In this document: positions 6,498 to 51,525 of the stretch, in pieces
How positions within the stretch are numbered: the stretch's first letter is position 1
Layout: every line of letters starts with the position of its first letter
From: Lachnospiraceae bacterium
GTDB taxonomy: Bacteria; Bacillota; Clostridia; Lachnospirales; Lachnospiraceae
Assembly (NCBI GenBank): GCA_910574885.1
Contig: CAJTDD010000013.1
Location: forward strand, 1-64,000
Direction: 5' to 3'
DNA length: 64,000 nt
The notes under the pieces: generated by a model
What the model saw: the letters and a program-made list of their open reading frames with translations, nothing else
Told to the model about the DNA's origin: nothing
Databases searched by the model: none
Translations under genes and position numbers: made by a program

Positions 6498-6562
6498 ATA
6501 CCTTATTGGACGAAGTCCACCCGCCCGCAGGGCATGCATCACCGTGTGCCATTGGGTATATA
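6498..6562 (+). repeat. Palindromic repeat family, copy 1 (rlmN/rsmB gap)
   Basis: Contains the family core TTGGACGAAGTCCA, then CCCGCCCGCAGGGCATGCAT and GTGTGCC-TTGGGTATA. Two mini-hairpins are predicted: GGAC-GAA-GTCC and GCCC-GCA-GGGC. This copy fills most of the gap between rsmB and rlmN, so it lies in the mRNA leader of rlmN. The left flank (TATACCTTATT) matches copy 5. Confidence 0.85.
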
Positions 6563-6603
6563 ATACTGCTATCATAAACCCATATCGCAAATCACCAAGC
6601 TCT

Positions 6604-7905
6604 TCACATTCTCAGGAACATCGCTATGTAGAACCCGTCTCCTGAATCACGCCCTGGCAAGGTCTGCCGTTCACGCTGCAGATGAAATTCTGGAAACTGT
6701 CTTGCGAACCATGCGGCATTATCCTCATTCTCTTCTTTATGAATGGTACATGTACTGTAAATCAACTTGCCGCCCTGTTTCACATACTCTGCCGACACAG
6801 ACAGAATCTCCCGCTGGAGCTTCACCAGTTCCCGCTGTGTATCCTGAGTCATCTTATATTTTAGATCCGGTTTCCTTCCCAGCACCCCAAGTCCTGAGCA
6901 TGGAAGATCTGCAATCACAATATCGGCTTTCCCTACGGACGCCTCGTCTCTCAGGCGCGCATCCATCTGCACCACTTCTATGTTCGTCATGCCGCTTCGC
7001 AGAATATTCTCCCGTATCATCCCTATCTTATATTCCGTCAAATCCCTTGCTTCCACATGCCCGGTTCTCCGAAGCATCTCTGCAAGATGGATTGCCTTGC
7101 CGCCGGGAGCGGCACAGACATCTATAATATAGCTGCCTTCCTCCGGTGCCGCCCACTGTGCGACCTGCATGGAACTGACGTCCTGTACCTGAAAATATCC
7201 TTTTTGAAAACTTTCCAGTTTCATCAGATAGTCAAGGCCTGAAAGGTGAAGCGCGTAAGGTAACTCTGCATCTTCCTTCACGGAGACACCCTCTTCTTTC
7301 AGCTTACGCATCAGTTCTTCCTTGGATATCCTATCTGGATGAAAGCGGACCGTCACCGGCTTTTCTTTCAGGAACTCTTCTGCCATGGCACGGACTGTCT
7401 CTTTCCCATATTCGGCCAGCCATTGCCCAAGTATCCATTCCGGTACAGAATAGCGCACGGAGAAACTATAAAGCATGTCCTCCTCGGAAGGATAACTGAT
7501 ATCAGACAAATTCCTGCTGATATTGCGGAGTACTCCGTTGACAAATCCCCGAAGGCTGCCAAAGCCTCTCTTTGCGGCAAGTTTCACGGCTTCATTGCAC
7601 GCTGCGGAAGCCGGGACACTATCCATATATTTTAACTGATAGACTGCGCTCCTAAGAATTGTCCGGATTACCGGCTTCATCTTGCTTACCTTGACCTTGG
7701 AGAACTGGTCGATGATGTAATCCAGTTCAATCATGCGTTCGAGAGTCCCATTCACCACTCTTGCAATGAACGCGCGTTCCTGTTTTTCCAGATATTGATA
7801 CTGGTCAAGTGCGTTCTTGAGCGCAATATGGCTATATTCCCCGCCACGGGTGATTTGGATTAAAATATCCAGAATCAATTCTCGGGTATTCGTGGATTGT
7901 GCCAT
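6604..7905 (-). CDS. rsmB: 16S rRNA m5C967 methyltransferase RsmB
   Basis: Makes 5-methylcytosine at position 967 of 16S rRNA with SAM. The 433 residues comprise an N-terminal NusB-like RNA-binding domain (about 1-140) and a Rossmann methyltransferase domain. SAM motif DVCAAPGGKA is visible. The two catalytic cysteines are in DLPCSGLG and YSTCTIHKEEN. It follows the zinc peptidase gene by 23 bases and probably shares its transcript. Confidence 0.95.
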   Translation of the reverse strand: MAQSTNTRELILDILIQITRGGEYSHIALKNALDQYQYLEKQERAFIARVVNGTLERMIELDYIIDQFSKVKVSKMKPVIRTILRSAVYQLKYMDSVPASAACNEAVKLAAKRGFGSLRGFVNGVLRNISRNLSDISYPSEEDMLYSFSVRYSVPEWILGQWLAEYGKETVRAMAEEFLKEKPVTVRFHPDRISKEELMRKLKEEGVSVKEDAELPYALHLSGLDYLMKLESFQKGYFQVQDVSSMQVAQWAAPEEGSYIIDVCAAPGGKAIHLAEMLRRTGHVEARDLTEYKIGMIRENILRSGMTNIEVVQMDARLRDEASVGKADIVIADLPCSGLGVLGRKPDLKYKMTQDTQRELVKLQREILSVSAEYVKQGGKLIYSTCTIHKEENEDNAAWFARQFPEFHLQRERQTLPGRDSGDGFYIAMFLRM

Positions 7906-7928
7906 GAGATAATCCTCCGCATCTAAAT

Positions 7929-8630
7929 TTAATTTCTCCGGTTATTCGCAAGCAATATAATACGCAAGAGCTGTAACGCCGCCGAAATTGCGCCTGCCAC
8001 ATAGGTAAGCGCCGCTGCAAAAAGCACCTTCTTTGTCGCATTCACTTCATCCTCGTAGAGAATCCCGCTGCCGCCTAAAATATGGATTGCACGGCTCGAT
8101 GCATTGAACTCTACCGGAAGCGTCACAATCTGGAATAAGACAGCCAGGGAAAATGCCAAAATACCCAGATTCAGAAATACCATAGAAGAACGGCTACTGA
8201 ATAAGAGTCCGATAATAATCAGCGGCCACGCGATAGCACTGCCGAAATTCACTACAGGCACAAGTGCGCCTCGGATCTGAAGCGGAACATAACCCGTATC
8301 ATGCTGGATTGCATGCCCGCATTCATGGGCAGCCACCCCAAGCGCCGCAACGGACGAAGAATTGTAGGTCGCATCAGACAAACGCAGGACTTTAGACCTT
8401 GGGTCATAGTGATCCGTCAGATTCCCCGGGACATGCTCCACCTGCACATCATGGATACCTGCACTTCTCAAAATCCGCTCCGCAGCCTCACGCCCTGTCA
8501 TTCCAGAATGGTTCCGTACCCTGGAATACTTGCCGAACGTAGACTTCATCTTCGCCTGTGCCAGCAGACAGATAATAAGGCCGATTATGACCAGAATATA
8601 TGTGGGATCTATCCCATAACCATAATACAT
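7929..8630 (-). CDS. Membrane neutral zinc metallopeptidase (YugP family)
   Basis: Membrane-embedded protein of 233 residues with the metallopeptidase motif HECGHAIQH at about residues 103-111. Hydrophobic segments lie near 9-26, 125-172 (two) and 200-225. The family is widespread in Firmicutes but its substrate is not established. A good ribosome-binding site (AGGAGG, 7 bases before ATG) fixes the start. Its position between fmt and rsmB is conserved in Clostridia. Three 15-bp direct repeats lie immediately upstream of the ribosome-binding site. Confidence 0.9.
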   Translation of the reverse strand: MYYGYGIDPTYILVIIGLIICLLAQAKMKSTFGKYSRVRNHSGMTGREAAERILRSAGIHDVQVEHVPGNLTDHYDPRSKVLRLSDATYNSSSVAALGVAAHECGHAIQHDTGYVPLQIRGALVPVVNFGSAIAWPLIIIGLLFSSRSSMVFLNLGILAFSLAVLFQIVTLPVEFNASSRAIHILGGSGILYEDEVNATKKVLFAAALTYVAGAISAALQLLRIILLANNRRN

Positions 8631-8652
8631 AACTACACCTCCTGATTACTTA

Positions 8653-8697
8653 TCACTATTACACATATCACGATTGCACATGTCTCTGTTACACATG
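8653..8697 (-). repeat. Three 15-bp direct repeats upstream of the zinc peptidase gene
   Basis: On the minus strand, units CATGTGTAACAGAGA, CATGTGCAATCGTGA and TATGTGTAATAGTGA follow each other without spacing (8697 down to 8653). Each contains ATGTG(T/C)AA. They end just before the AGGAGG site, so they would be in the 5' leader or near the promoter. This could be a binding-site array, or simple tandem duplication. Confidence 0.55.
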
Positions 8698-8725
8698 GTT
8701 CATCAACATATACAAAGTATTATAT

Positions 8726-8756
8726 ATGAAAAACAGGTAAAATACCTGTTTTTCAT
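8726..8756. terminator. Bidirectional hairpin after fmt
   Basis: ATGAAAAACAGGTA and TACCTGTTTTTCAT pair fully around an AAA centre, giving a 14-bp stem whose outer part is A/T-rich. On the minus strand it comes 17 bases after the fmt stop and before the zinc peptidase gene, so it probably ends the priA-def-fmt transcript. Confidence 0.75.
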
Positions 8757-8772
8757 ACAAATTTAACAATTA

Positions 8773-9798
8773 TTAATGATTTCCTAAAACTGTCCCTGCT
8801 TTCATCGGATACCCTCGCAGGAATGCGCCCGCATCCATCCGCTTCTTTCCCGGTATCTGTAACGCAAGTATTTTCAACGTTCCACGCCCGGTTTTCACAC
8901 AGAACCCATCTTTCCCGACTGCAACGACCGTTCCAGGAACCATCATCTCCTGATTCCCTGATGTTCCAGAATCCCCCATGTCCTCTTCCAGTTCCAGATT
9001 CTCCCGATTCTCTTCTGGCTTTGAATACTCTGCCGTCTTCGGCGCGTCCACCACCAGCGCGTCCCATATCTTCATCACCTTGCCGTCCCAGTCCGTGTAT
9101 GCGCTCGGCCAGGGATTTAATCCCCGTATCAGCCGCTCAATGGCTGCGGCGTCCTGATTCCAGTCAATCTCACCAAGGCTCTTATCCAACATTCTTGCGT
9201 ATTCCGTCGTGCTTTCACCCTGTTTTTCCGGTTTGACCGTTCCTTCTTCCAACTCCTTCAGCGTCCGGACACAAAGGTTTGCTCCCGCTTCCGCCAGTTT
9301 ATCGTGAAGGCTCCCACCCGTCTCCTTTTCGTCCAGCACAACTTCCGTCTTCAGCAGCATGTCTCCCGTGTCCAGCCCCTCGTCCATCTGCATAGTGGTG
9401 ACGCCGGAGACCTTCTCACCGTCTATGACAGCCCACTGGATAGGCGCAGCCCCGCGGTATTTCGGGAGCAGAGACGCATGTACGTTGATACAGCCATAAG
9501 GCGTCATCTCGAGAATCTCCTTAGGCAAAATCTGCCCGAACGCTATGACGACTATGACGTCCGCCTGATATTTCCGCAGTTCTTCCACACAGTCCAATGC
9601 CCGAACCCGCTTGGGCTGGAATACGGGAATCTGGTGTCTGATTGCTGCTTCCTTGACCGGCGTGTACTGCATCTTGCCGCCCCGTCCCTTGGGCTTGTCG
9701 GGCTGTGTGACTGCGAGGACCACCTCATGTCCTGCCTGAACCAACGCCTCCAGAGTTCCTACAGAAAAATCCGGGGTTCCCATGAAAATAATTTTCAT
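8773..9798 (-). CDS. fmt: Methionyl-tRNA formyltransferase
   Basis: Formylates initiator Met-tRNA using 10-formyltetrahydrofolate. The N-terminal transferase domain shows FMGTPDFSVGTLE, the folate-site motif HASLLPKYRGAAPIQWA and the TGDM region. The C-terminal OB-like domain follows. Between them (about residues 255-290) is an acidic insertion (EENRENLELEEDMGDSGTSG) not usual for Fmt, making 341 residues instead of about 315. The stop of def is directly adjacent to the start, so def-fmt are coupled. Confidence 0.95.
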   Translation of the reverse strand: MKIIFMGTPDFSVGTLEALVQAGHEVVLAVTQPDKPKGRGGKMQYTPVKEAAIRHQIPVFQPKRVRALDCVEELRKYQADVIVVIAFGQILPKEILEMTPYGCINVHASLLPKYRGAAPIQWAVIDGEKVSGVTTMQMDEGLDTGDMLLKTEVVLDEKETGGSLHDKLAEAGANLCVRTLKELEEGTVKPEKQGESTTEYARMLDKSLGEIDWNQDAAAIERLIRGLNPWPSAYTDWDGKVMKIWDALVVDAPKTAEYSKPEENRENLELEEDMGDSGTSGNQEMMVPGTVVAVGKDGFCVKTGRGTLKILALQIPGKKRMDAGAFLRGYPMKAGTVLGNH

Positions 9799-10272
9799 CT
9801 ACTCATCCTCCTCATATACCGCATCGTGAAGTCCGCCTTCTACCATCTCGACGTACATTTTTCCCTCCAGATGATCAATTTCATGACAGAATGCACGGGC
9901 AAGGAGTTCCTCTCCTTCCATCTCTACCTCTTCCATATCCTCGGTCAGTGTCCGGATACGGACATAGTTCGGCCTGGTCACGGTTCCTGCCTTCCCTGGA
10001 ACACTCAGGCACGCCTCCTCCCCGGTCTGCTCTCCGGATACTTCCAAAATCTCCGGGTTTATCAGCACGATTGGCCCGTCGCCGATATCAATGACCACAA
10101 TCTTCTTCAGAATTCCTACCTGGGGTGCGGCAAGCCCTACTCCCTGCGCCTCATACATCGTATCCAGCATGTCGTTGATTAGTATCCTGTTGCGAATTGT
10201 CATCTTCGTTACGTCTTTGCATTTCTTCGTAAGAACCTCATCTCCCAGTTCCCGAATCTTTCTTATTGCCAT
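9799..10272 (-). CDS. def: Peptide deformylase
   Basis: Removes the N-terminal formyl group from new proteins; metal-dependent. The 157 residues contain motif 1 GVGLAAPQVG, motif 2 EEACLSVPG with the metal Cys (the usual EGCLS has Gly where this has Ala), and motif 3 HEIDHLEG with the catalytic Glu and two His ligands. It ends one base before fmt begins, the common def-fmt arrangement. Confidence 0.95.
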   Translation of the reverse strand: MAIRKIRELGDEVLTKKCKDVTKMTIRNRILINDMLDTMYEAQGVGLAAPQVGILKKIVVIDIGDGPIVLINPEILEVSGEQTGEEACLSVPGKAGTVTRPNYVRIRTLTEDMEEVEMEGEELLARAFCHEIDHLEGKMYVEMVEGGLHDAVYEEDE

Positions 10273-10330
10273 AGCCTGCTCTCCTCTTCGTTTTATTCTA
10301 AACCATACCCGTCATGTTCCACCTGAAAAT

Positions 10331-10388
10331 ATACAATGCCGGACGAAGTCCGCCCGCCCCGCAGGGTCATGCATCACGGTATGCCTAA
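10331..10388 (+). repeat. Palindromic repeat family, copy 2 (def/priA gap)
   Basis: Core CCGGACGAAGTCCG, then CCCGCCCCGCAGGGTCATGCAT and CACGGTATGCC. Compared with copy 1, the outer pair of the first hairpin changes from T-A to C-G, keeping it paired. It occupies the gap between priA and def. Confidence 0.82.
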
Positions 10389-10397
10389 ATACTTAAA

Positions 10398-12638: not shown

Positions 12639-12641
12639 AAA

Positions 12642-14233: not shown

Positions 14234-14269
14234 ATAGAATCATTTATTAATGCATAGGGTTTAAATTTA

Positions 14270-14362: not shown

Positions 14363-15580
14363 ATGAAAGCATATGAACGGTTACTCAAGTATGTGGTCGT
14401 AAGGACGCCAAGCGATGACAACAGCGAGACGGTCCCTACCTCTTCCTGCCAGTTTGATTTGGCGCGCCTGCTAGAGCAGGAGATGAAGGAGCTGGGTCTT
14501 TCAGATGTGCGCCTGGACGACCAGTGTTATCTGTATGGGAAGCTGCCGGCGACTCCCGGGTTGGAGGACAAGCCTGCTATTGGCTTTATCGCACATATGG
14601 ATACGGTGTCGGATTTCTGCGATCATGAAATCAAGCCTGTACTTACGGAAAATTATGACGGGAAGGATTTAGCCCTCGGGGACAGCGGGCTTGTGTTAAG
14701 CCCGGATAACTTCGGGCATCTTGAGAGCCTTGCGGGGCGGACGCTGATTACCAGCGACGGGACGACGATTCTCGGGGCGGACGATAAGGCTGGGATTGCA
14801 GAGATTCTTACGATGGTGGAGCGGCTGATTCAGGAGGATATCCCCCATGGTACAATTTGCGTCGCATTTACCCCAGACGAGGAAGTCGGCACGGGAGCTT
14901 CTCATTTTGATGTGGAGGCGTTCGGGGCGGATTATGCTTATACGCTGGACGGAGATACGGAAGGCGAGATTCAGTACGAGAACTTCAATGCGTGCAAGGC
15001 GAGGTTCGATGTGAAGGGGTTCAATGTGCATCCTGGTTCCGGGAAGGATACGATGATTAATGCGAGCCTGGTCGCAATGGAGATTAACTCACTCCTGCCG
15101 GGCATGGAGACCTGCCGGGGCACGGAAGGGTATGAGGGATTCTACCATCTGATGAGCATGTCGGGTGAATGTGCAAAGGCACAGTTGAATTATATTGTGA
15201 GGGATCACTCTAAGGAATTTTTTGAGGCAAGGAAAGGGACTCTTCGGTTGATTGAGAAGAACCTCAACGAGAAATGGGGCGAGGGTACGGTCACGCTTAC
15301 CATTACCGAACAGTATAAGAATATGGCGGAGATTATTGCAGGATGCATGCACTTGATTGATAATGCCAAGACAGCCTGTGAGAATGCGGGGGTGACGCCC
15401 CTTGTGATTCCGATTCGCGGAGGCACGGACGGATGCCAGCTTAGCTTCAAGGGACTGCCTTGCCCGAACCTTGGGACAGGGGGTCATGCGTACCATGGGC
15501 CTTATGAGCATATCACGGTGGAAGGCATGGACAAGAGTGTGGATGTTGTAATGGAATTGGTGAAGCTGTACGCGAAATAG
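14363..15580 (+). CDS. pepT: Peptidase T (tripeptide aminopeptidase)
   Basis: Dinuclear zinc M20 peptidase that releases N-terminal residues from tripeptides in the cytoplasm. The 405 residues show GFIAHMDTVSDF (metal His and Asp), GADDKAGIAEI (bridging Asp), FTPDEEVGTGA (catalytic Glu pair), YTLDGDTEGEIQYENFNA and the late GGTDG...TGGHAYHGPYEH motif with the last His ligand. Start is supported by AAAGGGGAATG upstream. It is a monocistronic plus-strand gene between minus-strand units and ends at a shared hairpin. Confidence 0.95.
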   Translation: MKAYERLLKYVVVRTPSDDNSETVPTSSCQFDLARLLEQEMKELGLSDVRLDDQCYLYGKLPATPGLEDKPAIGFIAHMDTVSDFCDHEIKPVLTENYDGKDLALGDSGLVLSPDNFGHLESLAGRTLITSDGTTILGADDKAGIAEILTMVERLIQEDIPHGTICVAFTPDEEVGTGASHFDVEAFGADYAYTLDGDTEGEIQYENFNACKARFDVKGFNVHPGSGKDTMINASLVAMEINSLLPGMETCRGTEGYEGFYHLMSMSGECAKAQLNYIVRDHSKEFFEARKGTLRLIEKNLNEKWGEGTVTLTITEQYKNMAEIIAGCMHLIDNAKTACENAGVTPLVIPIRGGTDGCQLSFKGLPCPNLGTGGHAYHGPYEHITVEGMDKSVDVVMELVKLYAK

Positions 15581-15592
15581 AAGGGGCGGCTT

Positions 15593-15622
15593 CGAGTAGG
15601 GGAAAGGATTTTCCCCTACTCG
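15593..15622. terminator. Hairpin between convergent pepT and Rpn-like gene
   Basis: CGAGTAGGGGAAA pairs with TTTCCCCTACTCG around a short centre (GGAT). It is placed 13 bases after pepT and close to the end of the convergent minus-strand gene, so it may serve both directions. The T-tract on the plus side is weak (ATTAAATT). Confidence 0.65.
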
Positions 15623-15628
15623 ATTAAA

Positions 15629-16491
15629 TTATGCCAACTGAATAATCTCGGCTTGGATTTCCTCTAATTCCTCCATTGATAAGGACGGTATATAATGTGC
15701 GATTTTTTCAAGTGACATTTCTCCATCTTTAATCATTCTTTCCGCCGTTTCCCGGTCTGCATCATGCCGTTCACTTCTGATGAATGAATTCATAATCTGT
15801 TCTTCGTCAAATAAACTCATCATAATCGTTACAACCTCCTTTTCCCTGCTATGCAAATATTCCTTTAAAACATTCCTGTCCTTACATATTCTTATCGTTT
15901 CCATAACTGCCTTTTGTGTCATTCCATACTGTTGGGTCTGCTCGTTAAAAACTTTACAGAAAATAATGTATTGATTAATAATGTCGTCCTTATCGCTCTC
16001 GTAAATAATTTTTGCTTTTACTTCAAGGTCTATATCTGCATCCTCAAAAAATTCTTTTGATAAAGATATTCTATTGGGTTTCTGCCCTTTATTTCCTGTA
16101 AATATTACATAAAGTTCAGGTTTTGGCATTTTTACTTTCTTACTTTTGTAGTAGTTTTGTCTGGTTCGTTGAAAATATTCGTGATAACTTTGCGCCAAAT
16201 ACAACAAAACTCTTACTAAAATATTCATTGTCCATGTAGACTGTGCCTCTATAAGTATCATCAATTTATTACCTACAATAAACCCCAAATCATTATATAG
16301 ATTATCGGTCAGCACATTTTCTATTGTTACATCTGTCAGTGAATCCTCCGTCGCTGCTGTGTCCTCTGGGTGAAGCGTTTTATACAATTTTTTAACAGAT
16401 AACTCTTATTTTGAAAAAGATCAAGAAATACACTGTTTTTGGCAGTACGCTTTGCTTTTATTTCCTGTTTCTGCTTTGTATCGTCCTTCAT
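15629..16491 (-). pseudogene. Rpn-family PD-(D/E)XK nuclease/transposase-like, frameshifted
   Basis: The N-terminus (MKDDTK... RTAKNSVFLDLFQNKSYLLK, start 16491) continues in another frame as LYKTLHPEDT... TIENVLTDNLYNDLGF... MILIEAQSTW. This is the usual Rpn recombination-promoting nuclease sequence, with the catalytic Asp and Glu-x-Gln preserved. The break lies near 16385-16390 at an A6 run (TTAAAAAATTG on the minus strand); two fewer A would restore the frame. The C-terminal part has the late Glu-rich helices typical of the family. A frameshifted relic is most likely; slippage on the A6 run cannot be excluded. Confidence 0.8.
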
Positions 16492-16673
16492 TCCATCACC
16501 TCGGTAACTTAAACTCTGCGACATAAAATGCAATGTCATTTGCTCCTACTATATCTTAATTATACAAAAAAGGCCCTCTATTTACAATGAAATTCACACG
16601 ATTTTTTTATACTATTTTCTGAAACTGCCTGCAGATTTATCAAAAAATGATTTGATTCTACATATTCTCTACA

Positions 16674-17537
16674 TTATACCTCTTCTTTGAACCCTTCGCC
16701 TACAACCTCATTTGACTCCATAATAATCGTAAATGCCTGCGGGTCAATCTTACGCACCATCTTCTTAATGGTATACATCTGCTTATTGTTGCAGGCGCAC
16801 ATGACAACGTCCTTATTTTTCTTAGAATAGCTCCCGGTTCCTTTGAGGATGGTAGAGCCTCTCCCAGAGTATTCGTCGATGGATTCCGCTACTTCTGCAC
16901 CATGCTCTGTCACAATAAGAGTCATCTTCCCTTCGTCTACGCCGTACAGGATGCGGTCCATCACGATTGCCATGAGATAGGTCACGATGATTCCATAGAT
17001 GAAACCGTCAATGTCCTTGAACACAATCCAGCTCCCCAGAACGATTGTTGAGGTATCCAGTACAAAGGTGATGATTCCTAATGACATGTGCGGCTTTACT
17101 TTCTTGATGGACATGCTGATAAAGTCCTGGCCGCCTGTGGAAGAACCGCGCATGAACACGATTGCATATCCTGCGCCGCCAAGTACGCCCATGCAAAGCG
17201 CCGCAAGAAGGCGGTTGCCGTCATATACCGGGAACATAGGGGCAATGTAATCCATGAAAACAGAAGAGATAATCATCGTCTTGACCGATTTCAGGAAGAA
17301 TGTCCTGCCCAGGAATTTGTAGCAGAATATGGCGACGGGTACGTTCAGTAACAGGGTTCCTGCGCCGACTGGAAGTCCAAACAGATGGTATAGGATGATT
17401 GCGATTCCCGAAAACCCTGCTACCGGAAAATTGGCGTTCAGCGCAAAGTTGTAGATTCCCACTGCAATCAGCATACTTGCCGCAATATCGACGATGATAT
17501 CGATTCCTAATTCTTTCCATTTCATTTTGTAACTCAT
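16674..17537 (-). CDS. YitT family membrane protein with DUF2179 domain
   Basis: The 287 residues have five to six hydrophobic helices in the first 190 residues (starting DIIVDIAASMLIAVGIYNFALN), then a soluble C-terminal domain of the DUF2179 type (TILKGTGSYSKKNKDVVMCACNNKQ). The fold resembles small transporters, but the substrate is unknown. AGGAGG precedes the ATG by 8 bases. It is separated from the glycan operon by the structured gap at 17588-17691. Confidence 0.9.
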   Translation of the reverse strand: MSYKMKWKELGIDIIVDIAASMLIAVGIYNFALNANFPVAGFSGIAIILYHLFGLPVGAGTLLLNVPVAIFCYKFLGRTFFLKSVKTMIISSVFMDYIAPMFPVYDGNRLLAALCMGVLGGAGYAIVFMRGSSTGGQDFISMSIKKVKPHMSLGIITFVLDTSTIVLGSWIVFKDIDGFIYGIIVTYLMAIVMDRILYGVDEGKMTLIVTEHGAEVAESIDEYSGRGSTILKGTGSYSKKNKDVVMCACNNKQMYTIKKMVRKIDPQAFTIIMESNEVVGEGFKEEV

Positions 17538-18348: not shown

Positions 18349-19905
18349 TTATTTTATAAATAATTTAATATAATCCTCTGCCTCTATTGTATTCAAATTA
18401 AAGTCCCAGCCATATTTGCAAATACATTTCAAATAGTCGCCTGCCGACATATAATCATAAAAGGCATTGCCTGTATGTTTATAATTTCGGAGGCAAATCT
18501 TCACACGGTTGAGATATCTCAGAAAAGCAATTTTTTTCAATTTTGATTTTCGTCTCTCCTTCTTTGACATAGAGCAGTCCATATAATCCATCTGTATCCC
18601 GACGGTAGGATCGATATAATTCTGCATGTATTGATATTGCAGATACCGACCTTCCAGAAATATCCTTGGAAGTTTGGAGAAAAAATCGCAGAGCCTCTTA
18701 TCCCAAAAGGGAAGTTCCCAATCCAGGCCTGCGAACTCATAGGCCCGGACGTCATTTGCAATAAATTTTGCCTGACGGTTTTTCCATTCCCACAGCATGT
18801 ACTCCTGAACCATACCTCTTGGCGACAGTGTTTCAGGAATATTTTTTACCCATTTTCTGACTGCTTTTTGAACCGTGGGCGATGTCCGCAGATTATAATG
18901 ATCTTGTAAAATCATCGCCGCCATTTCGGTTCGGTTATATTCCCTGTTTTCGATATGAATGTGACTGCCTGCAAGAAAATCCAACGCATGCCCGGGAATA
19001 ACAACGGCGTTTTCCACAGCAAGCTCTCTCCGCTTCAACTCCAATACCGCCGGAAGGGGCTGAATGCTCCCGATTGACGTCCCTCGGCAGGAAAAATCTA
19101 AATACTTTTTATAGTCAGGGGAATGGAAAAAATCTCTCCAAACCTTCCCGTTATACTCGATAAAATGCCATGGACACCCCAATGCTTCTGCCACTTCCTT
19201 TGAGCATTCCGACTCCTCGTTCCCTGCACGCCCGTAAGAGAAACAGACAATATCTTTATATCCAAGCCGTTTTAAAACTACTGCTGCCGTCCTTGAGTCA
19301 CATCCGCCGCTTAACGGTATCAGCGCCGTTCTTCCATCCAAACGCTGTATCATGTCACAGAATACTTCGTCAAGGCAGGCGTCCAATTCTTCCAAAAACT
19401 CCTTTTCCACTCCTGTACCGTCACAGGTATAACGGCATTCATAATAAGATTTTCTGAAAATACTTCCGTCTTCTTTCGATATCACCACATACTCGCCCGG
19501 AAGGACCTGATAAATCCCCCGAAAAATTGTTTCATTTTCTGTAACATAACTGGCTCTTAAAAACTCGTTTACATTTTCATCCTGCAATACCGACTTGCTT
19601 TTCTCCGCTATCTTTGCCGCATCATCGCCAACCCAAATCCTATGTTCCTTTACACAATAAAACAACGGGATACTCCGTATGATGTCACATCCCAATATCA
19701 CACTTTTTTCCTGTTCATCCAGCAAGGCAAACGAACCTCTAAGCTCTCTAAGCCATACCATATTGGACGAAGTCCACCAACCCGCAGGGCATGCATCACG
19801 GTGTGCCCTTGGGCGCTCCCCAATACCCCCCCCCCTTATATTTTCGATTAATTTGCTTTTCTCGCCAGAATTACAATGATAGATACACTTTTCTACATTC
19901 AACAT
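18349..19905 (-). CDS. Asparagine synthase-like amidotransferase, degenerate N-domain, G10 tract
   Basis: The synthetase domain has the PP-loop LIPLSGGCDSRTA and follows the AsnB C-domain layout, so it should adenylate a carboxylate and transfer an amine. The N-terminal glutaminase region is shortened: no catalytic Cys at residue 2, and only LRGSFALLDEQEKSVILGCD recalls the domain. Residues about 24-50 are encoded by a G10 tract and by palindromic repeat copy 3. In glycan clusters such proteins often amidate uronic acids, which fits the WbpA/WbpB/WbpE-like genes nearby. The frame is open in this sequence, but a one-base slip at the tract would truncate it near residue 30. Confidence 0.8.
   Translation of the reverse strand: MLNVEKCIYHCNSGEKSKLIENIRGGGIGERPRAHRDACPAGWWTSSNMVWLRELRGSFALLDEQEKSVILGCDIIRSIPLFYCVKEHRIWVGDDAAKIAEKSKSVLQDENVNEFLRASYVTENETIFRGIYQVLPGEYVVISKEDGSIFRKSYYECRYTCDGTGVEKEFLEELDACLDEVFCDMIQRLDGRTALIPLSGGCDSRTAAVVLKRLGYKDIVCFSYGRAGNEESECSKEVAEALGCPWHFIEYNGKVWRDFFHSPDYKKYLDFSCRGTSIGSIQPLPAVLELKRRELAVENAVVIPGHALDFLAGSHIHIENREYNRTEMAAMILQDHYNLRTSPTVQKAVRKWVKNIPETLSPRGMVQEYMLWEWKNRQAKFIANDVRAYEFAGLDWELPFWDKRLCDFFSKLPRIFLEGRYLQYQYMQNYIDPTVGIQMDYMDCSMSKKERRKSKLKKIAFLRYLNRVKICLRNYKHTGNAFYDYMSAGDYLKCICKYGWDFNLNTIEAEDYIKLFIK
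19755..19816 (+). repeat. Palindromic repeat family, copy 3, inside the AsnB-like gene
   Basis: Core TTGGACGAAGTCCA, then CCAACCCGCAGGGCATGCAT and CACGGTGTGCCCTTGGG. Translated on the minus strand it gives RAHRDACPAGWWTSSNMVW in the N-terminal region of the AsnB-like protein, a peptide unrelated to that family. It lies directly beside the G10 tract. Confidence 0.88.
19826..19835 (-). repeat. G10 homopolymer tract in AsnB-like coding sequence
   Basis: Ten C on the plus strand (ten G in the coding strand) at codons about 24-27, read as R-G-G-G. Length changes by one would shift the frame close to the start. The second G10 tract of the window (30787-30796) has the same context, ATA before C10 on the plus strand. 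Confidence 0.9.
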
Positions 19906-22839: not shown

Positions 22840-23491
22840 TTTTCTCCTCCATATATTTTTGAACTTCCTCTGTCGATTCCAGAAATGTATACCCAAAGGC
22901 ACACCGTAATGCATGCCCTGCGGGCGGGTGGACTTCGTCCAACAAAGTATACCCAAGGGCACTCTTATCAAACTGGCTTCTGGTTCCCAATCCATAGCCG
23001 ACCATGACAGGTTTTACATATGGAAGTTTTCCCGCATCCAAATCCATCAAAGAATCCCCTATGATAGTTAAATCTTTACTCCTAATATTTTCTTGAATCC
23101 ACTGACGCTTCGACTGCGCCTTTACTACCGCAACCGGAACGTCCAAGCCAAGCGTTTGCAATTGCCATTTCAGATTTGCCTGTGAATATCGCTTTGTAAC
23201 AATGATACCTTGATTTTCATGAATCCATTTTTCAATATCCTCTTTTGGAAAAAATAATTCGTCTAACGCCAGGTATTTTTTTGCTTCCAACATCTCCCTC
23301 TTTCGCGAAAAATAATCGTATGGTAACGTTTTCCCAAACTCCATAGCCACCAATTCATCCTTGATAAGAAGTTGTTTTACCTTTTTATAGGTTTCCAATG
23401 TGATATCTTCCAGAGATAGCAGGTCGCAGAATACTCGGTGGAATCTCATCCACAGATTATTTAAAGTTCCGTCAAAATCAAAAATTATCAT
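22826..23491 (-). CDS. HAD-family phosphatase with an in-frame repeat insertion
   Basis: Haloacid-dehalogenase hydrolase of 221 residues. Motif I is IIFDFDGTLNN, motif II region VPVAVV, and motif IV TIIGDSLMDLDAG, so a phosphatase of a sugar or other small phosphate is likely. Residues about 183-202 (LLDEVHPPAGHALRCAFGYT) are encoded by palindromic repeat copy 4, a 20-codon insert that keeps the frame. After it the protein resumes with FLESTEEVQKYMEE. The insert is near the C-terminus, away from the catalytic motifs, so activity may survive. Substrate unknown. Confidence 0.82.
   Translation of the reverse strand: MIIFDFDGTLNNLWMRFHRVFCDLLSLEDITLETYKKVKQLLIKDELVAMEFGKTLPYDYFSRKREMLEAKKYLALDELFFPKEDIEKWIHENQGIIVTKRYSQANLKWQLQTLGLDVPVAVVKAQSKRQWIQENIRSKDLTIIGDSLMDLDAGKLPYVKPVMVGYGLGTRSQFDKSALGYTLLDEVHPPAGHALRCAFGYTFLESTEEVQKYMEEKNAVS
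22887..22962 (-). repeat. Palindromic repeat family, copy 4, 60-bp in-frame insertion
   Basis: On the minus strand GTGCCCTTGGGTATAC (22962-22947) and GTGCCTTTGGGTATAC (22902-22887) are near-identical direct repeats exactly 60 bases apart. Between them lie TTGGACGAAGTCCA, CCCGCCCGCAGGG and CATGCATTACGG. Removing one 60-bp period would leave an uninterrupted HAD reading frame (KSALGYTFLES). Confidence 0.92.
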
Positions 23492-44208: not shown

Positions 44209-44221
44209 ATATTCTCCTAAA

Positions 44222-44313
44222 ATATACCCTCCGGGCGTCCCGTAATGCATGCCCCTATGAGGCGGGTGGGCTTCGCCCAGTAAGGTATGCCCAAGGGCAC
44301 ACCGTAATGCAAG
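44222..44313 (-). repeat. Palindromic repeat family, copy 5 (DHHW/MBOAT gap)
   Basis: On the minus strand: GCATTACGGTGTGCCCTTGGGCATACC, then CTGGGCGAAGCCCA, CCCGCCTCATAGGGG, and a second GCATTACGGGACGCCCGGAGGGTATAT. The first hairpin is GGGC-GAA-GCCC (others GGAC/GTCC) and the second CCT-CAT-AGG (others CCC/GGG), so both keep pairing by double changes. The MBOAT stop codon lies at the edge of this element. Confidence 0.9.
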
Positions 44314-44317
44314 CCGC

Positions 44318-45700
44318 TCAACATACGATATATGCCACGCACAGCACGAACATTACCCCATATATGACACAATTTATCATCGCCATTCCTCTTGCGCCTC
44401 TGTCCATCACACTAACGTACCCTTTATGTACAAACGGAAGAAGCCCTATCAGCATAACGGCAAGAAGGGCAGCATTCGTGACTAACAGGTACATCCCCCT
44501 GTCATCCGCAAGGCCCGACGCTCCCACTGCGAACATAGTTCCTAGATAGGTGAAGCCTTCGCTCACTCTGGGATTAAAAAAGAATACCCAGCCAATCATC
44601 ACCATCACAATGCTGTAAATATGCCCGAGAAACCCTGGCATCTCATCTAACATCCTCCACAGAAACAGCTTCTCCGCCACCATCAAAAGGCCGCAGTACA
44701 GCCCCCATATAATATAATTCCCGGAAAGGCCATGAAACAGGCCTACGAGCAGCCAAATCAGCAGGATATTCCTCACCTGCTTTGATTCCTCGACATCGCC
44801 CCCGCCCAGGGGATGGTACACGTATTCCCGGAACCACGCCCCAAGGGACATATGCCATTTATACCAGAATTCCGTCGTACTTCCCGCCCCATAAGGATAC
44901 TCGAAATTCCCCGGCAGCTCGAAGCCTGTCATTTTTCCCAGTCCTAACGCCATGTCCGTATATCCGCTCAAATTATAATATATTTGGAGCGCGAACGCCA
45001 GACATCCAAGCCATGCGCTGAGCACAGACATCTCTCCTGCTCCCATCGCCATGACCTCGGCGTGGAGAATTCCTATATTATCTGCGAACAATACCTTCTT
45101 GGCAAGCCCGCGGATAAAATACATCGCCCCTTCCCCGACCTTGCCCGGCGTCATCTGCCTTGCCCCAAGCTGCTTTTCCATCTCTGCATACCGCACTACC
45201 GGACCGCCCGGCATCTTTAAGAACATAGACACATACAGGACAAGGTCAGCCGGATTCTTCTGCACCTTTGCATTCCCCCGGTAAACATCCAGGATATACG
45301 ATAACATCTGAAGTGTATAGAAAGACATCCCTATGGGCATCGCAAACCCCTGAAAGGGAATGTCAACAGGCAAGACAGCTTGAAGCCCCGCAAGAACCGT
45401 CCTTCCATATAGAAAGAAGACGAGAACCCCCAGATTGATTCCCACGCCAAAGCGCATAACAGCTCTGGCGCGCCTCCGATTCTTCAAAACTCCTGCCAAC
45501 CTAAGCCCGCAGGCATAAGTAAAAAGCGCCATCCCCACCATCAGGAAAACAGCCACAGGCTCCCCCCATGCATAGAACACAAGGCTTGCCAAGAGCAACA
45601 GAGCGTTCTTCAACTGCCCCGGCATCAGATAATACAGAAACAATACAACCGGTAAGAATGTAAATAAAAATACAACACTGTCAAATAAACCCGCTACCAT
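44318..45700 (-). CDS. MBOAT-family O-acyltransferase
   Basis: Multi-pass membrane enzyme of about 460 residues. Family signatures: GEPVAVFLMVGMALF, IPFQGFAMPIGMSFYTLQMLSYILDVYRG, the conserved polar block FWYKWHMSLGAWFREYVYHPLGG, and the catalytic His near LLVGLFHGLSGNYIIWGLYCG. It passes acyl (probably acetyl) groups out for transfer by the DHHW or SGNH protein. Start at 45700 overlaps the preceding stop (TAATG). Confidence 0.92.
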   Translation of the reverse strand: MVAGLFDSVVFLFTFLPVVLFLYYLMPGQLKNALLLLASLVFYAWGEPVAVFLMVGMALFTYACGLRLAGVLKNRRRARAVMRFGVGINLGVLVFFLYGRTVLAGLQAVLPVDIPFQGFAMPIGMSFYTLQMLSYILDVYRGNAKVQKNPADLVLYVSMFLKMPGGPVVRYAEMEKQLGARQMTPGKVGEGAMYFIRGLAKKVLFADNIGILHAEVMAMGAGEMSVLSAWLGCLAFALQIYYNLSGYTDMALGLGKMTGFELPGNFEYPYGAGSTTEFWYKWHMSLGAWFREYVYHPLGGGDVEESKQVRNILLIWLLVGLFHGLSGNYIIWGLYCGLLMVAEKLFLWRMLDEMPGFLGHIYSIVMVMIGWVFFFNPRVSEGFTYLGTMFAVGASGLADDRGMYLLVTNAALLAVMLIGLLPFVHKGYVSVMDRGARGMAMINCVIYGVMFVLCVAYIVC

Positions 45701-46497: not shown

Positions 46498-46537
46498 GCA
46501 AGATACGTTCTCCTTAAAGCCACTATTTATATCCCGT

Positions 46538-46566
46538 ATTGTACTGTTTTTCCCTGTAAAAGTCAA
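46538..46566 (-). promoter_or_regulatory. Promoter of the SGNH-MBOAT-DHHW operon
   Basis: TTGACT (46561-46566) and TACAAT (46538-46543), 17-base spacer, on the minus strand. Transcription should start about 46531. Confidence 0.75.
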
Positions 46567-46570
46567 ATAT

Positions 46571-46580
46571 ATGCTATACT
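46571..46580 (+). promoter_or_regulatory. Extended -10 for the divergent small gene
   Basis: ATGCTATACT carries TGC before TATACT, on the plus strand, 49 bases upstream of the next ATG. No clear -35. It overlaps the divergent minus-strand promoter region. Confidence 0.4.
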
Positions 46581-46628
46581 ATATCATAAATAACTACGAT
46601 TTTAACAATCAGCAAAGGAGTTTTTTAT

Positions 46629-47108
46629 ATGAATATGTTCACATTATCAGCAAAATCCTGTATGTCCCACCTCTTACTTAGGGACACCTTCGATAAATTT
46701 TCGTTCATCGAAGGGGAAATCACTACCTTTAACAAATTTACTTTGGACGGGTTCCTGCACAAAGACTTTTTCGATGAAAAGCCTGCGCGGGATTATTCCT
46801 ACTGGAGAGAAGTCCGGGACTTCTGTTTCAGCCTCATCAAAGGGAAACGGACGCCGCTTCATTTTAAGATTGTCCTCTCCCTTGCGCCGGAGCACTTCGG
46901 GGATTTTCTGGACGGACATCAGATACGTACATTTTCCCCGGAAGACATCACGGGGCTGTACCTGAATTTCCATTACGACGGCGCCGTCCTGCAATGTATC
47001 ACCGGAATTTCCATGCGGACATTCACCATGGATAAATCTCTTGAGAAAGAATGGGACGCCTATGTGGAAGGATTTTTCAAAAGAGCGGAAATTGACCGGG
47101 AAAAATAG
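46629..47108 (+). CDS. Conserved Lachnospiraceae protein (DUF5721-like)
   Basis: A 159-residue soluble protein (SAKSCMSHLLLRDTFDKFSFIEGEI... LDGFLHKDFFDEK...WREVRDFCFSLIKGKRTPLHFKIVLSL). This pattern recalls DUF5721, a family of unknown function in Lachnospiraceae. No transmembrane segment or catalytic motif is recognised. AAAGGAG precedes the ATG by about eight bases. It has its own promoter. Confidence 0.75.
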   Translation: MNMFTLSAKSCMSHLLLRDTFDKFSFIEGEITTFNKFTLDGFLHKDFFDEKPARDYSYWREVRDFCFSLIKGKRTPLHFKIVLSLAPEHFGDFLDGHQIRTFSPEDITGLYLNFHYDGAVLQCITGISMRTFTMDKSLEKEWDAYVEGFFKRAEIDREK

Positions 47109-47128
47109 ACATATTTTTAACAGAGACA

Positions 47129-47157
47129 TTGTATTTTTTTTATAAATCATTTATAAT
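47129..47157 (+). promoter_or_regulatory. Promoter of the chemoreceptor gene
   Basis: TTGTAT (47129-47134) and TATAAT (47152-47157) with a 17-base spacer. The ATG at 47202 follows AAAGGAG. Confidence 0.7.
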
Positions 47158-47201
47158 TTACATATACTTTTTGTTAGTTAATCGTAAAAGGAGATAAGAA
47201 C

Positions 47202-49217
47202 ATGAGAGGTAAGAGAAGAACTGAAGACAGGCCGGCGTCCAGATCCGCGATGCGCAGATGGGGCATTACAGGGAAACTGGTCATTGCAATCGTCGTCACC
47301 ATCGTAATTATGGTCGGCGCACTATTGCTGATCGTCCGCAGCCGCGTATCCGATGCTCTGCTGGCAAAGAGCGAGAAGCTGCTGGAAGAGACTACGGATA
47401 AGGCAATCCAGGAGGTGAACTCGTGGATGAGCGGAATATTGGCGACTCTGGAGACCCAGCGGGATACGATTCAATATGAAGATATGGACGTTCCGCGCAT
47501 GGTAGAATACATTAAGCATACGGCCAACCAGAACAGCGCATATCCGGCGGGAATCTATGTGGCGCTGACGGACGGCTCTCTATACCATGCATCCTTCGTA
47601 CCTGGTCCAGAATACAATGCCCTTGAGAAATCGTGGTATAAGGACGGGTTGGCATCCGAAGACTTCATTTTAGGCGACGCGTACTTTGACGAAGACAGCC
47701 AGTCCTATGTTGTAGGCGCGTCCGGCGTATTGAAGACCGCCGCCGGAGAAGTGAAGGGCGTTGCGGCAGCGGACGTATACCTGACTTCCATATCCGATAT
47801 CGTAGCCGATATCCGGCTGGAAAAGACGGGCGGGATTTTCCTTGTAGATACCAGGACCGGAACTATCATCGGCCATCCGGATACGGAGATGAACGGACGA
47901 TCCATAACGGAATTCACCGGCGATATGTATGCCTACGCTGCCAAGAAGATACAGGAGAATGCTACCGGGCTGAGCCTCTACAATGACGATATGTACATAG
48001 AATTGAAGACTGTGCCGAACTGTGACTGGATGGCGGTATCTTATGTTTCCAGAGACGAAGTGCTTGCTGATTTGGATACCTTGACAAGCATTATGACATC
48101 GGTAGCCGCGTTTGCAGTCTTAATCATGATTGTGCTGATTATCATTCTTGTAAGGAACATTATCGGGAAACCGGTAGCCGAACTGAATAATGTCGCATCA
48201 AGGATCGCAGAAGGCGATTTGGAGCAGTCCATCCGGCACACTTCCAATGACGAACTTGGAGAGCTGGCGGCCAATTTCGGCAAGACCGTAGTACGTCTCA
48301 GGGATTATGTGGACTATATTAACGAGATATCCGAAAAATTACAGGAAATCTCCGAGGGTAATCTTGCATTTACCCTTACCCATGAATATCTGGGAGAATT
48401 TGCAAAGATTAAGGACTCCTTAGAGCGAATTTCCTGGTCTCTCAACGAGACGCTGGGACAGATCAATGTGGCGGCCGGCCAAGTGGCGACTGGTTCCGAG
48501 TACGTTTCCGACGGGGCACAGACATTATCGCTGGGTTCCTCCCAGCAGACTGACGCCGTGGAATCTCTTGCATCCCATATTTCTGCGGTTTCCGATGGAA
48601 TCCAGAAGACCGCACAGGGCGCGAAACAGGCAAGCCAGATATCGAGGAATGTTAAGACGCGTATCCTTGAAAGCAACGAGAAGATGCAGCATATGAATTC
48701 GGCGATACAGAAGATCAGCGATAAGTCAACGGAGATTCACAGCATCATCAAGACCATAGAGGACATCGCATTCCAGACCAATATCCTTGCGCTGAACGCG
48801 GCTGTGGAAGCGGCCCGGGCAGGTACGGCAGGAAAAGGATTTGCAGTAGTCGCAGATGAAGTCCGTAACCTTGCCAGCAAGTCCTCTGAGGCGGCGAAGA
48901 ATACCACCACCCTGATTGACCAGACGGTGGAAGCCGTTGTCGAAGGTTCCAGCATGGCTGAGGATACGGCAGCTTCTATGATGGAGGTTGTAGAACAGGC
49001 GGAAGAGGTGAGCAAGCTGATTCAAGGAATTGCGGAATATTCTGCTCAGCAGGCAGAGGCAACGGAGGAAGTGACACGGGGAATCGCACAGATTTCCGAT
49101 GTGGTACAGTCTAACCTGTCTACCGCTGAGAAGAGCGCCTCTGCCAGTGAGGAGTTGTCCGGTCAGGCTAGTATGCTGAATGAACTGGTATCGAAGTTCC
49201 GGCTGAAAAAGCAATAA
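47202..49217 (+). CDS. Methyl-accepting chemotaxis protein with dCache sensor
   Basis: A 671-residue receptor. TM1 is about residues 24-46; a periplasm-facing dCache-type domain follows ([51 protein letters not shown]), then TM2 near 293-316, a HAMP domain, and the cytoplasmic signalling hairpin with tip sequence [21 protein letters not shown]. Methylation helices lie on either side. No chemotaxis kinase genes are in the window; ligand unknown. Confidence 0.93.
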
Positions 49218-49228
49218 GATATAATCCA

Positions 49229-49262
49229 GAAACGGGATTGCGTTTTGGCGCAATCCCGTTTC
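49229..49262. terminator. Bidirectional hairpin between chemoreceptor and htpG
   Basis: GAAACGGGATTGCG pairs fully with CGCAATCCCGTTTC around a six-base loop (14 bp). It stands between convergent genes. A plus-strand T-rich stretch follows only loosely. Confidence 0.88.
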
Positions 49263-49340
49263 CATATCTTTCTTCAATTCCCATATTAATCATTATAATG
49301 GCCTCTGCAAGATAACACAATTATTTGAATGTCACGTCGC

Positions 49341-51413
49341 CTACTTTGTCAACAGCATCATGACCTCATTGCTCCTCTGTACAAATGCCGTCATCTCTTC
49401 CGGATTCAGCGGCTTATGTGCCAGCATCGCCAAATCGTAAAGCTGTTTACAGATAATAGACACATTCTCATTCTCCTTATTCTCTACCACGAACTTCACC
49501 AGCGGGTGGTTCGCATTCAGAATCAGCGTGCTCTCTCCGCCCATATCCATGCCGCCCATATTGCCCATGCCGTACATCTTCATCATCTCCTGCATACGGC
49601 GGTTCTGCTCGGACAATGTAATCATGGATGCGACCTTCTCATCTTTCAGCTTCTCAATCTTCACATCCAACTTGTCGTTGCCAAGCTCCTTGCGGAAAAT
49701 CTCAATCAGGCTGTCGGACGTTGCCTTGAATGCTTCCTTCTCTTCTTCCGCCACCTCTTCCTTCACGTTATCCGTAACGTCGGCGTCAATCCTCTGGAAA
49801 CGGATATTCGGATTCTTCTGCTCTAACTGTGTGATGAACGGGGAATCAATGTTATGGTTCATGATTACGGCATCCTGTCCCTGATTCCGGAACATATTGA
49901 TGTACTGGCTCTGCTGAATCTCATCCGTCACATAGTAGATAGTGGTCTTAATCTCCTCTACCTTGTTCTCGTCCTCATTCTCACCCTCGGACGCCTCATC
50001 CTTCTTCTCATTGGCCTCAACGACCTCGCCGCCGTTCTCCTCGATACAATCCTTCAAGGTCAGGTATTTCCCGTCAATATTCTTAAACAGGATGACTTCC
50101 TTCATCTTGTCGCAGAACTTCTCGTCTTTCAAGCAGCCGAACTTGATGAACGGGCTGATATCGTCCCAATATTTCTCGTAGTCCTCTCTCTTCGTCTTGC
50201 ACATTCCGGAAAGCTTATCTGCAACCTTCTTGGAAATGTAATCGGCAATCTTATTGACGAACCCGTCGTTCTGGAGCGCGCTTCTTGAAACGTTCAGCGG
50301 CAGATCCGGACAGTCGATAACTCCCTTTAATACCATCAGGAACTCCGGAATAACTTCTTTGATATTGTCTGCAATGAATACCTGATTATTATATAACTTA
50401 ATCGTTCCCTCAATAGAATCATACTCGGTATTGATTCTCGGGAAATACAGGATTCCTTTCAGGTTGAAAGGATAATCCATGTTCAGGTGAATCCAGAACA
50501 GCGGCTCCTTGTAGTCTAAGAATACCTTGCGGTAGAACTCCTGATAGTCCTCGTCGGAGCAATCGTTGGGGTGCTTGGTCCACAGCGGATGGATATCGCT
50601 CAATGAGACCGGACGCTTCTCAATCTTGACCTTCTCCTTCGCCGGCTCCACCTCGACCATTTCTTTTTCGCCGTCTTCATTCTCTTTCTCTTCCATCTTG
50701 GCTTCTTCGTGGATATGCTCGACCACAACGTCGTCCTCTTTCAGGTCTGCCTCGTCGATGGTCTCATACTCCAGCTCTGCATTCGCCTTGGACAGGAAAA
50801 TCTCTACCGGCATGAAGGAACAGTATTTCTCAATGACTTCCCTGACGCGGTACTCGTTGGAGAATTCTACACTGTCATCGTTCAGGAACAGTGTAATCTC
50901 GGTTCCTACGCCTTCTTTATTCCCCTCGTCCATCTCGTACTCTGTGCCGCCGTCGCTGACCCAATGTACCGGGGTTGCGCCTTCTTTATAAGAAAGTGTA
51001 TCGATATGCACCTCGTCTGCTACCATGAACGCAGAATAGAATCCCAGGCCGAAATGACCAATCATATCGTCTTCCGTAGTCTTGTCTTTGTATTTCTCAA
51101 GAAATTCTGTCGCGCCGGAAAATGCAATCTGGGTGATGTACTCTTCCACTTCCTCGGCGGTCATCCCCAGACCGTTGTCCGTGAATTTCAAGGTCTTCTC
51201 TTCCGGGTTCACCTCTACCTTGATGGACGGCTTGTAGTCGTCCGGCAACTGGTATTCTCCCATCATATCCAATTTCTTTAACTTTGTGATTGCGTCACAT
51301 CCATTGGATACCATCTCACGCGCGAAAATGTCGTGATCGGAATATACCCACTTCTTAATAATTGGGAAAATATTCTCACTGCTGATTGACAAATTTCCTT
51401 TCTTTGCTGCCAT
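49341..51413 (-). CDS. htpG: Molecular chaperone HtpG (Hsp90)
   Basis: A 690-residue Hsp90. N-terminal ATPase with NIFPIIKKWVYSDHDIFAREMVSNGCDA, FTDNGLGMTAEEVEEYI, GHFGLGFYSAFMVA and GVGTEITLFL. The middle domain (PLFWIHLNMDYPFNLKGILYFPR, LPLNVSRSALQND) and C-terminal dimer domain follow. The start at 51413 (MAAKKGNLSISSENI) follows TAGGAG; a longer in-frame ATG adds 16 residues. Upstream lie a sigma-A promoter and a CIRCE element. Confidence 0.96.
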   Translation of the reverse strand: MAAKKGNLSISSENIFPIIKKWVYSDHDIFAREMVSNGCDAITKLKKLDMMGEYQLPDDYKPSIKVEVNPEEKTLKFTDNGLGMTAEEVEEYITQIAFSGATEFLEKYKDKTTEDDMIGHFGLGFYSAFMVADEVHIDTLSYKEGATPVHWVSDGGTEYEMDEGNKEGVGTEITLFLNDDSVEFSNEYRVREVIEKYCSFMPVEIFLSKANAELEYETIDEADLKEDDVVVEHIHEEAKMEEKENEDGEKEMVEVEPAKEKVKIEKRPVSLSDIHPLWTKHPNDCSDEDYQEFYRKVFLDYKEPLFWIHLNMDYPFNLKGILYFPRINTEYDSIEGTIKLYNNQVFIADNIKEVIPEFLMVLKGVIDCPDLPLNVSRSALQNDGFVNKIADYISKKVADKLSGMCKTKREDYEKYWDDISPFIKFGCLKDEKFCDKMKEVILFKNIDGKYLTLKDCIEENGGEVVEANEKKDEASEGENEDENKVEEIKTTIYYVTDEIQQSQYINMFRNQGQDAVIMNHNIDSPFITQLEQKNPNIRFQRIDADVTDNVKEEVAEEEKEAFKATSDSLIEIFRKELGNDKLDVKIEKLKDEKVASMITLSEQNRRMQEMMKMYGMGNMGGMDMGGESTLILNANHPLVKFVVENKENENVSIICKQLYDLAMLAHKPLNPEEMTAFVQRSNEVMMLLTK

Positions 51414-51460
51414 ACTTATCACTCCTACCTCATTTTTTAATATTTTCAAAATGTTATACA

Positions 51461-51525
51461 TACGTTATGAACGAAGTCCATCAACCCGCCGAACCTATCT
51501 TACGTCTTGCGGGCGTGCCGGAACT
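51461..51525 (+). repeat. Palindromic repeat family, copy 6 (degenerate, htpG leader)
   Basis: ACGTTATGAACGAAGTCCATCAACCCGC and TTGCGGGCGTGCCGG resemble the family, and CCCGC/GCGGG still pair, but the centre (GAACCTATCTTACGTC) differs. It lies in the htpG leader. Confidence 0.45.

Follow-up and report, generated by a model that had tools for sequence, protein, structure and literature searches.

The question raised by a stretch of 64,000 nucleotides from a Lachnospiraceae bacterium (assembly GCA_910574885.1, contig CAJTDD010000013.1, positions 1 to 64,000; here called the window) is what kind of DNA is repeated in it, at unrelated places, as a palindromic unit of about 60 bp. A preliminary description of the window, made from its letters alone, had listed five clear and two degenerate copies, had expected many more across the genome, and had likened them to REP/BIME or Rickettsia palindromic elements without recognising the family. 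The repeats are a real family of small mobile palindromic repeats, and the family is new. The unit, about 56-64 bp long, is quite probably a non-autonomous mobile DNA element with the core ACC...GGGT, a Y-AT-R target and a body consisting of a row of hairpins.

Copy number was assessed with a covariance model, R1, which was built from 29 copies of the genome containing the window (G000), 4 of them window copies. Three genomes were searched with 150 candidates scored in each, so that the counts are lower bounds: at least 137 matches at E 0.01 or better in G000, at least 75 at E 0.001 or better in the genus relative Sporofaciens musculi WCA-9-b2 (G009; NZ_WUQX01000001.1), and at least 136 at E 0.001 or better in G139, a genome of another genus. 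We take Sporofaciens to be a genus of Lachnospiraceae. In a survey of 397 genomes of the same family, at least 42 carried R1 matches (E 0.001, strict filters), again a lower bound, with 13 candidates scored per genome. Since R1 was partly built from window copies, exact occurrences of the 11-base core GGACGAAGTCC were counted as evidence independent of its scores: there were 75 in the 5.35-Mb genome versus 1 for the reversed control pattern. The element is thus present in many copies genome-wide, as the preliminary description had expected. Plasmids and phages gave no match to one copy used as a blastn query, and viral contigs gave none to the three exact patterns searched.

The window was scanned with R1 with filters off and matches reported up to E 10. 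The copies are:

6497..6559, plus strand, full element, intergenic, flanked by two minus-strand genes (80.9 bits, E 1.5e-23)
10330..10394, plus strand, full element with a degraded 3' end, intergenic (49.3 bits, E 4.3e-13)
19754..19816, plus strand, full element in antisense, close to the N-terminal end of an asparagine-synthase-like open reading frame (ORF) (65.4 bits, E 2e-18)
22889..22951, minus strand, full element, read in sense and in frame within the C-terminal extension of an HAD-like ORF (82.9 bits, E 3.6e-24)
22952..22962, minus strand, partial 3' end of a preceding unit (GTGCCCTTGGG), read from the sequence
44224..44289, minus strand, full element between two minus-strand genes, overlapping a predicted start (74.8 bits, E 1.6e-21)
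44291..44332, minus strand, partial neighbouring unit in tandem (12.8 bits, E 0.47)
51461..51525, plus strand, possible decayed 5' half copy (no R1 match up to E 10)

The five main copies were therefore found where they had been placed, with E values from 4.3e-13 to 3.6e-24, three on the plus and two on the minus strand. Their scores are partly high by construction, because all except the copy at 10330 belonged to the model-building set. The partial tandem unit was found in the genome search as 44287-44332 with E 0.002. The two degenerate copies fared less well. The one at 51461 is a decayed half copy at best, which is plausible because its stretch is 82 bp longer than in S. musculi. The one at 61795 had no R1 match, and only small gaps interrupt the S. 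musculi alignment across it, so that this claim is not supported. Copies had been described both between and inside genes, and the second part is weak in the window, although it holds elsewhere in the genome (L080 and L010, below). Two of the five copies are intergenic, one overlaps a gene start, one lies in a C-terminal extension and one in a doubtful N-terminal extension, that of the asparagine-synthase-like ORF, whose start codon is uncertain. The copy in the HAD-like ORF is translated in frame as YTLLDEVHPPAGHALRCAFGY; the HAD match of this ORF is slightly under the Pfam cut-off. The stretches holding the copies at 6497, 10330 and 44224 are 149, 73 and 84 bp longer, respectively, in the window than in S. 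musculi. The other genus orthologues examined at the 6497-6559 site had no R1 match, and at 10330-10394 nine further genus orthologues had both flanks and no R1 match between them. No window copy matched Rfam, a scan of the window at gathering thresholds finding two tRNAs only, and no description of the family was found in the openly accessible literature, subscription papers lying outside this search; the family is thus not a recognised one. Two longer stretches of the window also lack a counterpart in S. musculi, about 3.6 kb at 51661-55259, in a syntenic region, and about 1 kb at 15579-16674.

Mobility was judged from orthologous loci, the comparison that had been proposed as a check on the family. 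The 110 merged sites of G000 that were examined are part of the places found by the genome search, and 20 of them had both flanks in the 1.5 Mb of S. musculi that was searched. At none of these 20 sites did S. musculi have an R1 match at the same place. Neither outcome that the preliminary description had named as a refutation, a genome lacking further copies or orthologues all sharing their positions, was thus obtained. In S. musculi, the gap of one site held an oppositely oriented copy, another site had an array about 230 bp away and a third a copy about 4 kb away. Empty sites could be read with base or near-base precision at L080, L013, L022 (5757), L040, L010 (2636) and, for the left side only, L049. 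At L080 a 459-aa ORF carries 21 extra in-frame residues compared with a 433-aa, 97%-identical paralogue about 3 kb away, which represents an empty site in the same genome. At L010 a kinase carries an in-frame copy and its orthologue is empty. As far as these alignments reach, they demonstrate lineage-specific insertion. In ComEC orthologues the copy lies in a variable linker, and no clean empty site was seen. Three paralogous loci (L041:3795, L054:3947 and L055:3947) carry the element at the same position within flanks that are about 86-95% identical, from which it appears that some copies have multiplied together with the DNA around them, by duplication.

The flanks share a two-sided target, Y-N3-WW-NN-Y[AT]R-NN-WW-N3-R. 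Left ends read N-ATACC, with N mostly T or C, and right ends GGGTAT-N, with N mostly A or G, so that a copy has the form ACC...GGGT with AT on either side. From 149 sites, 94 left and 76 right flanks were retained after removal of element-like flanks and malformed ends and merging of repeats of one flank. A pyrimidine was found at -8 in 74 of the 94 left flanks (p 5e-9) and a purine at +8 in 63 of the 76 right flanks, about 49% being expected for each. The latter bias persisted after removal of element-like right flanks (40/50, p 1e-5) and under a stricter cut (24/33, p 0.008). Positions -3, -4, +3 and +4 were rich in A and T. Other genera taken alone, for which positions -8 and +8 were covered and from which 5 of 49 rows of the same genus, or possibly so, had been removed, gave Y at -8 in 21/24 and R at +8 in 15/17 (joint p 3e-7). 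The flanking letters thus establish a target bias. A 4-bp duplication of TATA was considered and dropped in favour of AT, because, of the 49 sites with both sides clean, 26 had agreeing end 4-mers, a number not above that of shuffles (24.9). In the test of a TA duplication the target was TATA and its outer bases fit AT better than a duplicated TATA, although a duplication would look the same as an AT brought in by the element. The individual sites agree with this choice: at L049 an empty CATA corresponds to a filled site starting with C on the left, at L022 an empty TATG to one ending with G on the right, and at L040 an empty TGTA to one with AT inside and with T and A as the outer letters. 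These ends fit a core ACC...GGGT with AT on both sides that would have been inserted at Y-AT-R.

Twelve arrays were recognised among 67 loci by a strict parser; the merged sites of G000 include an array of five units. The units stand head to tail, with one AT shared between neighbours and no spacers as in a CRISPR array. Tandem neighbours were near-identical (0.93 identity in 14 pairs versus 0.78 for random pairs of loci), which indicates local amplification; some arrays hold clearly different units (L074 at 0.88, L022 at 0.74). In G139 (C1:3019353-3019789) at least seven units with nearly equal scores follow one another. Arrays of near-identical neighbours, one with five units, are what a plain minisatellite, arisen and spread by replication slippage and gene conversion, would leave. 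This explanation is scarcely credible as a full account, given that most sites are single R1 matches at unrelated places, that the sites share a target rule and that orthologous sites are empty; the empty and filled pairs in particular oppose it.

The unit has the layout TATACC-TTAWT-[hpA]-CCC-[hpB]-ATGNATTACGGNNTG-[hpC]-TATAC, hpA, hpB and hpC being hairpins, and its core is mostly 56-64 bp long. Across genera the stem of hpA occurs as GGAC/GTCC, GTGC/GCAC, GCAC/GTGC and GAAC/GTTC and in longer forms, and that of hpB as GCCC/GGGC, GTCC/GGAC, CTCC/GGAG and others. In an alignment of 31 rows that included other genera, hpA and hpB together were 97.6% paired versus 83.9% in shuffles, and 35 of their cells were changed on both sides versus 7.7. 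None of 500 shuffles reached either value, and slid controls were far lower. The stems of both hairpins thus covary between genera, evidence for structural selection on the element. A simple hairpin finder recovered hpA in 158 of 194 distinct copies, 123 with a G...A loop, and hpB in 122 of those 158, 102 with a loop starting with G and ending with A; the loops of both are mostly G-N-A or G-N-N-A. An RNAalifold consensus of G000 copies, which paired the 3' arm of hpB with the far end, was rejected. It is contradicted by G139 copies, in which hpB became GTCC/GGAC and the far GCCC remained unchanged; the covariation described above supports the local hairpins instead. G139 arrays adjoin another hairpin, TTGAAC...GTTCAA (L024 1490-1510 and 3615-3640; L025 4690-4720), which in L024 comes after TATACCTTA. 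This may be a sign of a second subfamily whose first hairpin differs.

Gene calls were made in-house on a hexamer basis, without a published gene finder. By these calls, 72 of the 110 G000 sites were intergenic, 22 overlapped a gene end and 16 lay inside a called gene, some of the 16 being near an uncertain start. The corresponding numbers for the 39 sites of S. musculi were 32, 6 and 1, and in other genera all 11 sites were intergenic. For G000 and S. musculi together, 23 of 142 sites were genic compared with 75% of TATA motifs (p 2e-49), 7 of the 149 sites having been dropped at locus edges. The 75% background is somewhat high, because the intergenic TATA set omits gaps holding an element; the coding fraction by base is 79-80%. 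Counted in this way, the sites show gene avoidance. In three cases the in-gene copy lies between domains: between HisKA and HATPase (L011), ahead of a glycosyltransferase domain (L021), and between the competence and lactamase domains of ComEC (L053). Twenty-two of 105 full-length copies are open in five of six frames, and the mean number of open frames per full-length copy was 3.6 versus 2.7 in shuffles. Sense in-gene copies of G000 were read as TAT|ACC in 10 of 10 cases, whereas the single one of S. musculi differs. No selection on the peptide is claimed, because of this exception and because TATA inside genes is found in the same phase anyway in 1274 of 2085 cases. Covarying hairpins and many copies between genes could also be expected of a regulatory RNA or terminator module, selected and copied for its usefulness to the host. 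This is highly improbable in view of the orientation of the copies relative to co-directional flanking genes, which showed no significant bias (28 same, 43 opposite, p 0.10), of the copies in divergent (29) and convergent (19) gaps, of the in-gene copies, and of the lack of shared positions with S. musculi at the 20 comparable sites.

Several observations weigh against a mobile element of this kind. Flank identity at the comparable sites is about 70-97%, roughly half or more of the 20 were aligned less exactly than to the base, and the L080 pair needs, in our reading, 3 extra bases at the left junction. The centre of L040 in S. musculi is GT, not AT, and an AT duplicated from the target is indistinguishable from an AT carried by the element. 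The right flank is no clean mirror of the left, showing C at +1, G at +9 and A at +10. These letters resemble those with which the element itself starts, so that remnants of decayed tandem neighbours may be present in the flanks; the asymmetry would reflect either such leftovers or a true preference for look-alikes of an attachment site. As to the hairpins, the number of hpA and hpB pairs with double change, 6, is less striking, being reached by 39 of 500 shuffles. Pairing of hpC is weakly supported (77/81 cells versus a shuffled mean of 74.5, reached by 34 of 5000 shuffles, with 4 of the 31 rows skipped), and the folding energy of one copy was unexceptional (z -1.4 as DNA, -2.2 as RNA). Finally, G000 had no match to Y1_Tnp, the REP-type transposase, and no match to the IS630-type DDE_3 (PF13358) was found in G000, S. 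musculi or G139; a crude inverted-repeat search of 8 IS30-type loci gave no repeat clearly above chance. The absence of a mobilising enzyme from G000 is not final, because the assembly is 96% complete with 7.9% contamination.

In the 34 genomes tested, Y1_Tnp was present in 19, DDE_3 in 8 and HTH_38 (IS30-type) in 31. Short loops of the GNA/GNNA kind are typical of stable DNA hairpins. Hairpins of this sort, and Y1 matches in some copy-bearing genomes (five in S. musculi, 17 in G005, four in G139) would suit a REP/BIME-type element moved on single-stranded DNA hairpins by an IS200/IS605-like Y1 transposase (REP-associated tyrosine transposase, RAYT). We consider this very unlikely: besides G000, the copy-bearing genomes of other genera G426, G398, G272, G092 and G211 had no Y1_Tnp match, the target is two-sided, and no GTAG or CGTC tag is present at the ends, which read TATACC...GGGTAT in the consensus and in the alignment with other genera. 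Nor was a replication-strand bias seen in S. musculi, where 11 sites lay each way among the matches listed (50 of 75), counted by hand in two regions bracketed by GC-skew samples with arrays merged. A more serious alternative, possible though doubtful, is a miniature inverted-repeat transposable element (MITE) of a cut-and-paste DDE transposase making a 2-bp duplication, IS630/Tc1-like or IS30-like, the parent of which was lost or not found. The AT on both sides, the two-sided target and the gene avoidance agree with it, as do the IS630-type matches in the copy-bearing genomes G005, G426 and G211. With 2 bp between them, the tandem units are also reminiscent of the IS30 dimer junction. Such an origin is opposed by the lack of DDE_3 in the three genomes named above, by a terminal inverted repeat of only about 4 bp (ACCC/GGGT), and by the inspected IS30-type HTH proteins, which had no convincing matching ends. 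Among the loci inspected, L239 (3434-4543) and L241 (2549-3709) hold a conserved HTH_38 protein of about 370-386 aa with no clear transposon-like ends, in L239 near a muramidase-like ORF; it may belong to a prophage and not to an IS30 element. In G139, an IS30-type ORF (L224 1342-2539) lies inside a weak inverted repeat of 12-13 bases with an ACC start and a GGT end; the repeat is of a quality expected by chance and its right end is without AT.

In the mechanism that we prefer for the non-autonomous element, it would enter double-stranded DNA where a two-sided and roughly palindromic target has Y-AT-R at its centre, leaving AT on both sides either as a 2-bp duplication or by a crossover. The body would be maintained as a row of short hairpins, which may be what the predicted enzyme, or replication of the element, recognises. 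Where two units meet, their own ends would form the target T-AT-A, and units would in this way also come to lie in tandem. Selection would remove most genic insertions; an in-frame minority survives, located in several cases in linkers, loops or gene ends. A single enzyme acting in trans presumably moves the element, which is probably parasitic rather than useful. A further, rather unlikely proposal is a small circle as the mobile form of the unit, integrated by conservative site-specific recombination of the serine-recombinase type, with AT as the 2-bp crossover. The junction GGGT-AT-ACC of the circle would then be its attachment site and the chromosomal targets look-alikes of that site. Such movement would explain the two-sided target with a right half resembling the element's own start, the lack of agreement between the outer bases of the two ends, the single AT between array units, and the lack of long inverted ends. 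If it were true, the unit would be among the smallest mobile cassettes known, without a gene of its own.

With this family, gut Lachnospiraceae gain a minimal kind of mobile DNA in which structure is kept while the letters change. The question of what moves tiny gene-less repeats becomes testable, since the mobilising enzyme should accept a substrate of 60 bp and a target of about 20 bp. The element may also cause misannotated gene ends in copy-bearing genomes.

Among known systems, REP/BIME sequences share the high copy number, the shortness, the palindromes and the occasional location inside genes; REPs measure 20-40 bp with a GTAG or CGTC tag (PMC3733652). The likeness to REP/BIME proposed at the outset is not borne out, as the present element has three hairpins instead of one, no such tag, a two-sided target and no Y1 match in G000. 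RUP, Correia/NEMIS and ERIC are palindromic with TA termini, measure about 107-155 bp and have terminal inverted repeats of 7-24 bp, RUP with about 110 copies in one genome (PMC2229807, PMC3049150). The present unit differs in its length of about 60 bp, its ends of about 4 bp, the AT at the target centre, and the lack of an IS630-type match in G000. BOX of Streptococcus is modular, with a variable number of tandem modules, some of which encode open frames (PMC3049150); its A, B and C modules are distinct, whereas here identical or similar whole units are joined by AT. A further likeness, compared by description only, is to the Rickettsia palindromic elements, short palindromes which lie between genes and are fused in frame into protein genes; they are given as 105-146 bp with a long stem, in Rickettsia (PMC2229807). 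The present element is about 60 bp long, with several hairpins and the Y-AT-R target, and occurs in Lachnospiraceae, so that the second likeness of the preliminary description stands for behaviour and fails for membership. In-frame insertion into protein genes is found here as well (L080, L010), providing independent cases of short repeats that add about 21 in-frame residues to proteins. In behaviour, then, the family is like the Rickettsia palindromic elements, and it is set apart from them by its target rule and by the structural selection on its hairpins.

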